IMG/VR virus record: IMGVR_UViG_3300027365_000033
Span: 1 to 36,708 of that record
Reading direction: 5' to 3' (one strand)
Source of the DNA: a virus
Length of the DNA: 36,708 nt
This document shows positions 31,695 to 36,315 of this stretch, piece after piece (within the stretch, counting starts at the first letter, position 1; each line of letters begins with the position of its first letter). A program made the translations under genes and the position numbers. A model generated the notes under the pieces. It saw only the letters and a program-made list of their open reading frames with translations, ran no database searches and was not told the DNA's origin.

Positions 31695-31712
31695 TTTCGA
31701 TGTGACAGTCGA

Positions 31713-31718: not shown

Positions 31719-31738
31719 TCCTGATTCCCAACCTCTCA

Positions 31739-31847
31739 ATGGTGGTCGGGTTTAGGCCACTTCGGTGGATCTGTTCCAGGAGCAGTACTGTCACCCTAAA
31801 CCCGAACCCGCCGCCCAACGCGGTGGCTTCATAATTGGAGCGACACC
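31739..31847 (+). ncRNA. structured 5' leader of P22-type antirepressor gene
   Basis: P1: CGGGTTTAGG (31747-31756) pairs perfectly with CCTAAACCCG (31795-31804), extendable by GGT/ACC across a one-base bulge. P2: CCAC-TTCG-GTGG (31757-31768), a UUCG tetraloop. P3: CTGTT-CCAGG-AGCAG (31771-31785). Next to the start, GGTG-GCTTC-ATAATT-GGAGC-GA-CACC (31822-31847) hides the GGAG Shine-Dalgarno and abuts the ATG. CCGCC (31808-31812) can pair with GGTGG (31822-31826) instead, freeing it. ATGGTGGTCG (31739-31748) is complementary, with one bulge, to CGACACCAT (31841-31849), the start region. Together this looks like a translational switch. Function not shown. Confidence 0.5.
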
Positions 31848-32426
31848 ATGTCTGAAGAAGAAAACCTCACAACCACGTTTAAACAAATTATCCCTTTTCA
31901 TGGAATTCTGATCAGTGTTGTTGAACACAACGGCACTGACTATATCCCACTAAAACCTATCGTTGAGTTGTTAGGAACACAGTGGAAAACGGCCAGAGAA
32001 AAAGCCTTTTTTGGCGATAACAAAGAATTATTTGGTACATGTGAGCTGAACGAACCAATTTTCAACACATTCCATACCCCTAGGGGTGCGAAAAAAGCGG
32101 TGTTCATCTTATTAGAGGCTGGAGAAATGTATCTAATGAAGACGAATACCAATCAAATTAGAAAAAATGGCAATGCCTCAACAGCAGATTATTTATTAAA
32201 ACTGCAAAAAGAATGGCGTAAAGCGCTACATGATTATCAAAACAAAGGCATTGCTGTTAAGAGCAAATCATTGGATCAGAAAAAGGAATTAAAAGAACTA
32301 TTCAATGCACGAAAACTAGCCACTAAACCAGCAGAAAAAGAAGCTTTATCAAAAATGATTGAGCATCAAATGGCAGAATTAGGGTATCCATTAACACCCG
32401 ATCCTCAAGGTGAACTGCCTGTTTAA
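31848..32426 (+). CDS. phage antirepressor, P22_AR_N domain
   Basis: A 192-residue protein. Residues ~10-125 match the P22 antirepressor N-terminal domain: IPFHGILISVVEHNGTDYIPLKPIVELLGTQWKT..., later RGAKKAVFILLEAGEMYLMKTNTNQI, separated by the typical variable loop. The C-terminal part is a Lys/Glu-rich helix (LDQKKELKELFNARKLA). It probably inactivates a phage repressor by direct binding, promoting induction. A structured leader (31739-31847) covers its ribosome binding site, so expression should be tightly limited. A strong GC hairpin follows. Confidence 0.8.
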   Translation: MSEEENLTTTFKQIIPFHGILISVVEHNGTDYIPLKPIVELLGTQWKTAREKAFFGDNKELFGTCELNEPIFNTFHTPRGAKKAVFILLEAGEMYLMKTNTNQIRKNGNASTADYLLKLQKEWRKALHDYQNKGIAVKSKSLDQKKELKELFNARKLATKPAEKEALSKMIEHQMAELGYPLTPDPQGELPV

Positions 32427-32434
32427 TATTAAAG

Positions 32435-32456
32435 TGGGGGAGGCTTTCCTCCCCCA
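32435..32456 (+). terminator. probable terminator after antirepressor
   Basis: T-GGGGGAGG-CTTT-CCTCCCCC-A: a 9-bp stem (8 bp GC-rich) with 4-base loop at 32435-32456, followed by ATATTTCAGTT. The T-tract is weak, so termination may be partial. Confidence 0.6.
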
Positions 32457-32517
32457 TATTTCAGTTATGGGTGTAAAAATAACTCACTATTTGAAAGTAT
32501 AAAAAAAGGGGTTAAGC

Positions 32518-33887: not shown

Positions 33888-34610
33888 TTATAACTTCAGA
33901 ACTTTAAAGAAATATTCTTCAGTAATAATCACTATGGGGTGACCAGCATCCCTTACATTCACAGCCTCTTCAATTTTTCGCCCAAATGATGAGTGTATCC
34001 ATGCACCACTTCCAATTTCACCTATCACAAGATAATGGCAGTTGGAATTTGCATTCTTTTTGACAAAACCACCATTTTCTAAGATGAGTTTTTCAACATC
34101 TTTTCGTTTTGCATGTGAGAAGTTGCCTGTTAATGCAAAGTGATGACCGGGTATTGTTATTTCATCAGGCGGGTTTTCAGTTAATGGAAGCGATGTTGAT
34201 GTGTTGGAACCATTATCACTCTTGTGGTTTACTCCAGTTATCTCAATAAGTGAATCTAGCAATTTTGCTTCTTCATCGTTATCAATAATGTCATCAGATA
34301 AATAGACCTTTAATCGCCAATGAAGCTTTTTGCCGATCCAGTCTTCAGCAACTAATGGATTAGCATTTAACCAATCAAGTAAGTTTTCAGCCTCAGCCTT
34401 TGTTACAGCACCATCAAATAAGACACCTCGACAAATACCAATAAGTTCATCAATAGCACGGTCTTTGAGACGTTGTTTATTTCGGTTGTCGATTCTGTTA
34501 CGAGCTTGTTCATCTTTAGCGGCCTGACGATTTTTCTCGTCTTCAGCAATTAAAATATCCCATTCTTCGTCTGTTAAATTATTGAAATACTCAATGTCTT
34601 TGTCGTCCAT
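33888..34610 (-). CDS. BRCT-domain protein with TerB-like middle region
   Basis: A 240-residue protein. The C-terminal ~85 residues form a BRCT domain: 'IPGHHFALTGNFSHAKRKDVEKLI.ENGGFVKKNANSNCHYLVIGE', 'S.FGRKIEEAV', the PIVIITEEYF end, as in DNA ligase/RFC-type BRCT. The N-terminus is a charged helix (EEWDILIAEDEKNRQAAKDE) and the middle (ELIGICRGVLFDGAVTKAEAE...DEEAKLLDSLIEITG) recalls TerB-like helical bundles. BRCT domains recognise phosphopeptides or DNA ends. Encoded opposite the antirepressor genes with its own transcription, so it may act in the lysogen, possibly in DNA-damage sensing or defence. Confidence 0.65.
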   Translation of the reverse strand: MDDKDIEYFNNLTDEEWDILIAEDEKNRQAAKDEQARNRIDNRNKQRLKDRAIDELIGICRGVLFDGAVTKAEAENLLDWLNANPLVAEDWIGKKLHWRLKVYLSDDIIDNDEEAKLLDSLIEITGVNHKSDNGSNTSTSLPLTENPPDEITIPGHHFALTGNFSHAKRKDVEKLILENGGFVKKNANSNCHYLVIGEIGSGAWIHSSFGRKIEEAVNVRDAGHPIVIITEEYFFKVLKL

Positions 34611-34691: not shown

Positions 34692-34720
34692 TTGACAGAG
34701 AAAACGCAGAGGACTATATT
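34692..34720 (+). promoter_or_regulatory. consensus sigma-70 promoter
   Basis: TTGACA (34692-34697), 17-base spacer, TATATT (34715-34720): one of the best sigma-70 promoters in the window. The start would fall around 34726-34728, exactly at the 5' hairpin of the small RNA. It reads rightward, away from the BRCT gene. Confidence 0.75.
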
Positions 34721-34725
34721 TTTAA

Positions 34726-34806
34726 GCACATCAGCAAAATCTGATGTCAGGGTTTGGAAGCTCTGTTATTCAAGGACGCCCAATCAGCCGCGTCACGCGG
34801 TTTTTT
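34726..34806 (+). ncRNA. candidate small RNA (~80 nt)
   Basis: Transcript predicted between the strong promoter and a clean terminator. It opens with ACATCAG-CAAAAT-CTGATGT (34728-34747), then a 40-base mostly unpaired stretch carrying GTTTGGAAGC (34752-34761) and TTCAAGGAC (34769-34777), and ends in the terminator CCGCG-TCA-CGCGG-TTTTTT. GTTTGGAAGC and TTCAAGGA recur at the translation start of the downstream gene, and their complements lie in the leader loop (34856-34877). No long ORF or ribosome binding site fits, so it is not a gene. Proposed role: antisense/decoy regulator of the cassette. Confidence 0.6.
34788..34806 (+). terminator. rho-independent terminator of small RNA
   Basis: CCGCG-TCA-CGCGG (34788-34800) followed by six T (34801-34806). 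Short perfect GC stem plus U-run. No protein gene ends nearby on the plus strand, so it defines the 3' end of the upstream small RNA. Confidence 0.8.
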
Positions 34807-34818
34807 GTGCCATAATTT

Positions 34819-34944
34819 TATGGTGGTTGTGCGTGGGGGAGCTTCGGCTCGCCAGGTCCTTGAACTGGTCTTCCAACCCTGCGTGCAGCCATCACCCATG
34901 TTTGGAAGCGTGGTTGATGGTTTAATTTTCAAGGAGATTAACCA
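34819..34944 (+). ncRNA. structured leader with kissing-loop anti-Shine-Dalgarno
   Basis: P1: GGTTGTGCGTGGGG (34825-34838) pairs with CCCTGCGTGCAGCC (34877-34890) over 14 pairs (5 wobbles), extendable by ATGGTG/CACC-C-AT. P2: GAGC-TTCG-GCTC (34839-34850). P3: CCAG-GTCCTTGAA-CTGG (34852-34868). A separate hairpin TGGTTTAAT/ATTAACCA (34918-34944) presents TTTCAAGGAG as its loop, holding the Shine-Dalgarno. The P3 loop UCCUUGAA is exactly complementary to UUCAAGGA (34928-34935), so a loop-loop contact can mask the ribosome binding site. GUCUUCCAAC nearby complements GUUUGGAAG in the same region. Also complementary to the upstream small RNA. Confidence 0.6.
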
Positions 34945-35264
34945 TGTCAACTCAGCAATATTCCCGCCTGCGTCTCGTTCAGGCCATTTCTCAAAATGAC
35001 TCACTCTATAATCCAGAGCCTAATTATCAAGTAAGCACCGGCACAGTCTGGGGCTGGCGTGATAGTGATAACGCCCCCTTAGTTATCCAGCTTTCTAACG
35101 GTATCCATTTCGCCTGCCCAGGCATCAGCAAAATAGCCAGACAATCCGCCTTAGCCCAAGGGGCCATTGGCCAGAAGGTGGCCTTTTATCATCGTGGGTT
35201 TGATATCCAGGGCAAGCCCATCCAGCCCGAGTTTAAAACACTGATTATGAATGGGGAGGGCTAA
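34944..35264 (+). CDS. hypothetical protein, first gene of Bro-N cassette
   Basis: A 106-residue soluble protein (MSTQQYSRLRLVQAISQNDS, VSTGTVWGWRDSDNAPLVIQ), beta-rich, no motif recognised. It directly follows the structured leader with AAGGAG (34931-34936) seven bases upstream and is three bases ahead of the first Bro-N gene, so its translation is the first target of the leader control. Function unknown; possibly a partner of the antirepressors. Confidence 0.6.
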   Translation: MSTQQYSRLRLVQAISQNDSLYNPEPNYQVSTGTVWGWRDSDNAPLVIQLSNGIHFACPGISKIARQSALAQGAIGQKVAFYHRGFDIQGKPIQPEFKTLIMNGEG

Positions 35265-35267
35265 ACC

Positions 35268-35819
35268 ATGGCTGATTTACGCACATTAGCGAATCCATTC
35301 CAGTTTGCTGAGCTGGATGTAAGAACGGCGGTCGACCAAGATGATCAAGTCTGGTTTTGTGCCAAGGATGTTTGTTTGGCTCTGGATATTGCTTGGTCAG
35401 GTGGATCAATCACTCTGGAAAACATGCCAATTGACTGGTTTATGGTCATGAATCTCATGACCATAAAAGGCGAAAGAGACGCCATTTTCATCAATGAGCC
35501 AGGCTTATATCGGCTCATTTTTCGCTCCAATAAACCCAAGGCCGTCGAGTTCTCTAATTGGGTTTGTCGTGAGGTGTTGCCTGTTATCCGTAAAAATGGC
35601 TTTTTCGGCACTGTTTCAGGTAAGGACAGGTTGGCTTATTCAAAGCAGGTGGTCGAGATAACCACCAGACTCACCCAAACCAAAGATGCCATGCTTCATA
35701 AGATGCTCATTGCAGAGCTGCGTGACTGCTGCAACATCATCGGCAGGCCAATGCCTGATTTAGCATTGCTAGGCAAAGACTATAAACAGTTGGATATGTT
35801 GGAGAACGGCCATGAATAA
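35268..35819 (+). CDS. Bro-N antirepressor, copy 1
   Basis: A 183-residue protein with a complete Bro-N domain: NPFQFAELDVRTAVDQDDQVWFC in pieces, AKDVCLALDIAW, NEPGLYRLIFRSNKPKAVEF and WVCREVLPVIRKNGFF. The C-terminal 60 residues (MLIAELRDCCNIIGRPMPDLALL) form a variable tail. Bro-N antirepressors bind phage repressors or DNA and release lytic genes. It overlaps the paralogue by eight bases. The loop TLEN... lacks the usual aromatic pair at one site but the fold motifs are intact. Confidence 0.85.
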   Translation: MADLRTLANPFQFAELDVRTAVDQDDQVWFCAKDVCLALDIAWSGGSITLENMPIDWFMVMNLMTIKGERDAIFINEPGLYRLIFRSNKPKAVEFSNWVCREVLPVIRKNGFFGTVSGKDRLAYSKQVVEITTRLTQTKDAMLHKMLIAELRDCCNIIGRPMPDLALLGKDYKQLDMLENGHE

Positions 35820-36315
35820 CTTAAAAACATTAGCCAATCCATTCACCTTTAAAGGCCATGATGTCCGTGTGGCCGTAACCGAGCAGGGCGGTGTGTTATT
35901 CCATGCTGAAGATATTGCGAACGCGATGGGTATGGATAGCAATACGCTGCAAGATGCCGTTCGTTTTATACCGGGTAACTGGCGTGTCTTTTTACCAAAC
36001 ACCGATATGATTTTCTTAACTGAGCCGGCAGTGTTCAAACTGATATTCCATTATCAGTCTGAGCAGGCGGTATCATTAGCTGAGTGGATAGTGCAGGACG
36101 TACTAACCACGTTAAGGAAACATGATTTTTTCGGTGAACTCAATCCAGCGTTAAGACTGGAATATGCCAAAACTATCACCGACTTGTTGCAGCAACTAAC
36201 AAGCAACCGGTCGGGCCATGTCCGCGATGTATTAGTCGCAGAGCTGCGTGATTGCTGCAACCTGGTAGGCAAAGAACTACCTGCAGCAATCAACAAAACC
36301 AGCATGCACTTCTGA
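35812..36315 (+). CDS. Bro-N antirepressor, copy 2 (tandem paralogue)
   Basis: A 167-residue protein paralogous to the preceding gene: NLKTLANPFTFKGHDVRVAV, EDIANAMGMD, TEPAVFKLIFHYQSEQAV, WIVQDVLTTLRKHDFFGE, and the same tail AELRDCCNLVGKELPAA. The alignment is end to end but with many changes, so the duplication is old or the copies have diverged for different repressors. Its ATG lies in the previous gene's last codons, so the two are translated together. Confidence 0.82.
   Translation: MNNLKTLANPFTFKGHDVRVAVTEQGGVLFHAEDIANAMGMDSNTLQDAVRFIPGNWRVFLPNTDMIFLTEPAVFKLIFHYQSEQAVSLAEWIVQDVLTTLRKHDFFGELNPALRLEYAKTITDLLQQLTSNRSGHVRDVLVAELRDCCNLVGKELPAAINKTSMHF

Follow-up and report, generated by a model that had tools for sequence, protein, structure and literature searches.

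The window, that is, the whole stretch of 36,708 nucleotides analysed here, is a virus contig of 36.7 kb (IMG/VR record IMGVR_UViG_3300027365_000033) that carries P2-type capsid and terminase genes and comes from a phage whose host is probably Methylophaga. The locus under study lies near its 3' end, where a small RNA (sRNA), a folded leader, a small open reading frame and two antirepressor-type genes follow a single promoter on the plus strand (Table 1). The promoter is found at the same place in L018, a locus about 95% identical to the window. A gene for a BRCT-domain protein (33888-34610, minus strand) is divergent from the operon and is positioned just 5' of the sRNA promoter. The 106-aa reading frame, which is the first gene under control, occupies the position of icd in phage P1; it is without a match in Pfam and PHROG, and its homologue in Methylophaga sp. 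OBS4 is 77% identical. No close relatives of the locus were found in the E. coli genomes searched, and the search of phage records gave weak matches solely in the Bro-N part.

Table 1. Features of the sRNA-leader-antirepressor locus and of a second C4-like unit in the window
Feature	Position	Strand	Basis or remark
Second C4-like RNA	31735-31818	+	39.5 bits, below cut-off
Promoter, strong, sigma-70-type	34692-34720	+	TTGACA-17-TATATT; 11/12 consensus positions
sRNA, isrK family	34728-34807	+	Rfam RF01394, 53.0 bits
a1, decoy copy of the upstream target segment	34751-34761	+	complementary to a'
b1, decoy copy of the Shine-Dalgarno segment, TTCAAGGAC	34769-34777	+	exact 9-base complement of the P3 loop
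Predicted antiterminator hairpin	34775-34794	+	GACGC-(10)-GCGTC; kept in most of 40 loci
Intrinsic terminator of the sRNA	34786-34806	+	7 pairs and T run (34786-34802)
C4 antisense RNA	34816-34899	+	Rfam RF01695, 61.9 bits; fold
b', P3 loop GTCCTTGAA	34856-34864	+	fold and exact position
a', CTTCCAACCC	34870-34879	+	3' of P3, before the closing P1 strand
a2, target segment 5' of the start	34900-34909	+	exact position
b2, TTCAAGGAG(A)	34928-34937	+	exact position; holds the Shine-Dalgarno of the ATG at 34944
106-aa ORF	34944-35264	+	P1 icd position
Bro-N antirepressor	35268-35819	+	Pfam PF02498 8.5e-20; PHROG anti-repressor 9.7e-36
Second Bro-N/antirepressor-like gene	35812-36315	+	Pfam/PHROG searches

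The sRNA consists of a 5' hairpin, a second hairpin that contains a1, the single-stranded segment b1 and then the terminator. Its length of about 80 nt is a prediction for the window phage, the experimentally known relative being IsrK of Gifsy-1 (PMC4825925). The sequence GTTTGGAAGC is present twice, at 34752-34761 and at 34900-34909. Between the two copies the leader folds as a C4 cloverleaf, in which GTCCTTGAA is the exact 9-base loop of P3. The promoter, the terminator, the doubled segments and this loop, on which a preliminary description of the DNA had been built, were all found again where it had placed them. A conserved ATGGTGG at 34820-34826 falls where cleavage occurs in phage P1, and, placed by position in P1, the mature C4 would start at the GG at 34822.

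Both RNAs belong to known families. The sRNA matches the whole Rfam isrK model (1-77 of 77) above the cut-off of 50 bits, the near-identical locus L003 scoring 58.6 bits, and the leader matches the whole C4 model (1-87 of 87) above the cut-off of 45 bits. As is characteristic of C4, the a' and b' segments have complementary targets on both sides, upstream and downstream, the b target covering the ribosome binding site, and the window has the order of the P1/P7 immI region: promoter, a1, b1, C4, a2, b2, small ORF, antirepressor. When the sRNA was compared with the Rfam c4-a1b1 family (RF03163), a score of 22.2 bits over the full model was obtained, below the cut-off of 46.7. The window sRNA would function like a1b1, though it falls outside that model. 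Sub-threshold isrK matches in other genomes were used only where a C4 adjoins, because matches at loose E-values also arise in unrelated control genomes; those of P1 and P7 have an adjoining C4.

The complementarity of the doubled segments, to which the preliminary description had drawn attention, is not due to chance. Among 10,000 dinucleotide shuffles, 2 attain the complementarity of the C4 loops to the two sRNA segments in their order, and 18 attain the corresponding complementarity to the start region; random pieces of the window, used as a control, reach neither (0/10,000 for the sRNA and 0/10,000 for the start region).

For a comparison across genomes, 40 C4 loci were assembled: the window, two relatives that a protein search turned up (L005, a virus contig, and L006 from Methylophaga sp. 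OBS4), matches to the C4 or isrK family from genomes that are related to Methylophaga OBS4 or belong to its class, P1, P7 and Gifsy-1. Across these loci the a' 7-mer takes 29 different forms and the b' loop 37. The a' segment and P3 loop of each locus were scored against the upstream and downstream regions of its own locus and of all the others. Own regions scored far above those of other loci, with z of 18.6 for the sRNA (upstream) and 18.2 for the start (downstream), neither of which is reached in any of 20,000 permutations; these z-scores overstate the evidence because relatedness among loci leaves them non-independent. In the subset of 18 loci recovered through C4 alone, z was 9.7 and 9.5. 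Far less affected by kinship are the 28 loci with unique a' and b' segments (z 15.4 and 13.8) and the comparison of the window with L018, in which a1, a' and a2 differ at the same two positions with all pairs kept (TTTGGAAG becoming TTTAGCAG and CTTCCAAC becoming CTGCTAAC). Matched changes in all segment copies are also seen between P1 and P7. Rather than changing independently, the loop, the Shine-Dalgarno and the sRNA segments covary in the 40 loci. This makes a strong covariation case, in which an sRNA, an antisense loop and a Shine-Dalgarno change together.

Four loci (L038, L058, L045 and L026) have matching a1/b1 segments and poorly matching a2/b2 segments; judged from their sequences, these loci may have lost their mRNA target or exchanged it for another. 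Several genomes have at least two C4 units with different a/b segments (L015/L027, L017/L028 and L020/L029/L030), and one contig, L051, has two C4 units within 1.4 kb (266-345 and 1603-1684).

The window itself contains a second C4-like RNA, located 29 nt 5' of a P22_AR_N antirepressor gene (31848-32426). An 8-base a1-like match is present nearby at 31702-31709; no isrK-like sRNA and no clear a2 were found at this unit, and a search for it in phage records gave no matches. The unit may be decayed or variant, and there may be two C4-type antirepressor units in the phage. A weak match to the Termite-leu RNA at 32429-32509 on the plus strand (30 bits, cut-off 51) is probably a terminator hairpin.

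Repression by C4 is demonstrated in P1 and P7, where the established form of C4 is a separately processed, trans-acting antisense RNA. The repressing piece of the window may act in the same form, a possibility that the preliminary description had not taken up, and the locus is very probably an IsrK-C4 immunity module of the P1/P7/Gifsy-1 kind. In such a module, the one promoter would give rise either to the terminated IsrK-like RNA of about 80 nt, which contains a1 and b1, or to a readthrough mRNA. The readthrough RNA would contain the C4 cloverleaf; the a' and b' segments of C4 would bind a2 and b2, where the antirepressor operon begins, and prevent the first ORF and, via coupling, the antirepressor from being translated. 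C4 would probably be excised by RNase P and act in trans, as it does in P1. The short RNA would present copies of a2 and b2, and, when in excess, it would occupy C4 and allow the antirepressor operon to be translated, pushing the prophage toward the lytic state. The earlier proposal that the loop masks the start and that the sRNA mimics the start and removes the loop is well supported, at the level of sequence, by the tripartite covariation, and it agrees with Gifsy-1 IsrK. The parts, their folds, their family membership and the covariation are read directly from sequence; for the window phage, we infer transcription, processing, the direction of the effect and the decision of the phage.

Cofolding of the separate pieces at minimum energy gives a gain of -3.4 kcal/mol for the sRNA with C4 and of -0.6 kcal/mol for C4 with the start. 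With gains this small, pairing would need to begin by loop kissing, which is outside the models of these programs. In the lowest-energy fold of the readthrough RNA, a1 and b1 are paired in cis with a' and b'. This cis-paired state is reported to be silent in Gifsy-1 (PMC4825925), and its silence is not explained by a plain decoy model. Co-expression of the C4-containing RNA STnc1160 in Gifsy-1 increased the growth arrest mediated by IsrK (PMC4825925), which also counts against the model.

The experiments on Gifsy-1 bear on the proposed mechanism in several ways. Supplied in trans, IsrK activates the antirepressor operon, as is supported by compensatory mutations; an anrP translation fusion rises 114-171 fold and the long transcript about 8 fold (PMC4825925). 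After mapping of the published numbering onto the Gifsy-1 sequence, the published pairs G28-C162 and G31-C159 turn out to be a1-a' pairs. Basal expression, otherwise at 4 units, reached 484 and 926 units with the two a' mutations alone (PMC4825925). Such a rise would be expected from lost C4 repression of a2; this is the present re-reading and not that of the paper, which accounts for its data by two leader folds and mentions neither C4, Rfam nor P1 in its text (PMC4825925). In cis, a1 mutations alone brought expression up to 93 and 218 units (PMC4825925), a rise that stays unexplained under the C4 re-reading. In Gifsy-1 (L067, minus strand), the orf45/STnc1160 region coincides with the C4 RNA, and a2/b2 are at the anrP start; the start of orf45 was placed inside the region that is C4 (PMC4825925).

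C4 may have a further role, in that we infer that it also controls termination of the sRNA. The 5' arm of the predicted antiterminator hairpin begins within the final bases of b1, and the 3' arm overlaps the 5' arm of the terminator; in P1 the counterpart of this hairpin is TGCGG-ACAA-CCGCA. C4 supplied by a lysogen would pair with nascent b1, cover the 5' arm of the antiterminator and so favour the sRNA terminator. The short RNA would then be partly a product of repression, and the circuit would keep C4 at a set level. This form of attenuation is a real, if tentative, possibility; it is compatible with the decoy role of the sRNA, and the confidence placed in it overlaps that placed in the IsrK-C4 module. 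In its favour, the hairpin is conserved and covarying: its strength summed over 39 loci exceeds that of shuffles (z 9.7), and swapping arms between loci lowers its score (z 7.0; 0/20,000 permutations; 25 arm types), although few loci reach significance by themselves, the test covered a short region, the position beside b1 is partly forced by that shortness, and relatedness inflates the z-scores. In three loci (L020, L030 and L026) the scan returned the terminator itself instead of the hairpin. In a simulation of nascent window RNA, the hairpin forms before the 3' arm of the terminator appears. The rise of the Gifsy-1 long transcript fits the removal by IsrK of a termination factor, and the CI RNA of phage P4 with seqA and seqC is a published precedent, raised by the Gifsy-1 authors themselves (PMC4825925). 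Against attenuation stands the co-expression of STnc1160 in Gifsy-1, which did not reduce the growth arrest mediated by IsrK (PMC4825925).

Taken further, it may be proposed that IsrK is the a1b1 leader of P1/P7, that C4 controls the attenuator in all of these systems and that the orf45 region of Gifsy-1 is largely C4, although the balance leans slightly against this proposal as a whole. If it is true, an antisense RNA limits its own synthesis in addition to blocking the antirepressor, and the terminated RNA returns as a decoy. Antisense-controlled termination is a specific prediction, cheaply tested in the classical P1 system.

The cis-paired fold of the readthrough RNA described above would also suit a plain cis switch, in which the leader flips between the fold pairing a1b1 with a'b' and the fold masking a2b2, and neither a free C4 nor a trans-acting sRNA takes part. 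Such a switch is quite improbable. IsrK has been shown to act in trans (PMC4825925), a processed RNA of the size of C4 is reported in P1/P7 and Acinetobacter (PMC5320573), and a T-run terminator between b1 and C4, needless for a pure cis device, is detected by script in 38 of the 40 loci and can be seen on inspection in one more (L015). Chance repeats in a GC-rich leader have only the shortness of the segments in their favour and are a negligible prospect, being rejected by the shuffles and permutations and refuted by the covariation.

The IsrK-C4 module can be compared with several known systems. The control by antisense RNA in P4 immunity (CI RNA, seqA, seqC) resembles the window in having an antisense RNA between upstream and downstream target copies (PMC4825925), but it acts through transcription termination of replication genes, and the likeness is one of described layout. 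The C4-like sRNAs of Acinetobacter baumannii share the C4 fold, a variable a' loop and processing at the GG site, whereas they occur in many copies per genome (PMC5320573).

Gifsy-1 is much closer. Like the window, it has a promoter, the IsrK sRNA with its terminator, C4, and a2/b2 where the antirepressor gene begins; C4 begins about 25 nt 3' of IsrK, and the two score 69.0 bits (C4) and 79.3 bits (isrK). In Gifsy-1 the readthrough RNA is the target on which the sRNA acts in trans, and the same pairings predict such an action in the window. The a and b segments differ between the two, the upstream neighbour is antQ in Gifsy-1 and the BRCT-domain gene on the other strand in the window, and only in the window does the 106-aa ORF precede the antirepressor.

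The immI region of P1 and P7 (c4, icd, ant) has a1, b1, C4, a2, b2, a small ORF and an antirepressor in common with the window, as well as a terminator 5' of C4. The antirepressors are Ant1/Ant2 in P1/P7 and two short Bro-N proteins in the window, and P1 is a plasmid prophage, whereas the window belongs to a P2-type phage. The C4 RNAs of P1 and P7 score 68.8 and 69.6 bits, and against the isrK model the a1b1 regions of the two phages reach 35.1 and 43.7 bits, below the cut-off of 50. As these regions score as isrK beside C4, like Gifsy-1, IsrK and the P1/P7 a1b1 leader appear from their sequences to be one element.

The statement in the preliminary description that no described phage system has this layout did not survive this comparison. 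The GenBank annotation of P1 (AF234172) lists, in order, putative a1, putative b1, C4, a2, b2, icd and ant1, and Gifsy-1 IsrK, which adjoins a C4, is published. The switch is therefore already known from P1, P7 and Gifsy-1, and the window is a well-made example of it, adding a host lineage, probably phages of Methylophaga, to a known immunity switch. In the literature searched, isrK and C4 antisense RNA are mentioned together only in the annotation table of a Xylella paper. The comparison outweighs the locus itself, since it joins the work on C4 of P1/P7 with that on IsrK of Salmonella, which are separate in that literature.
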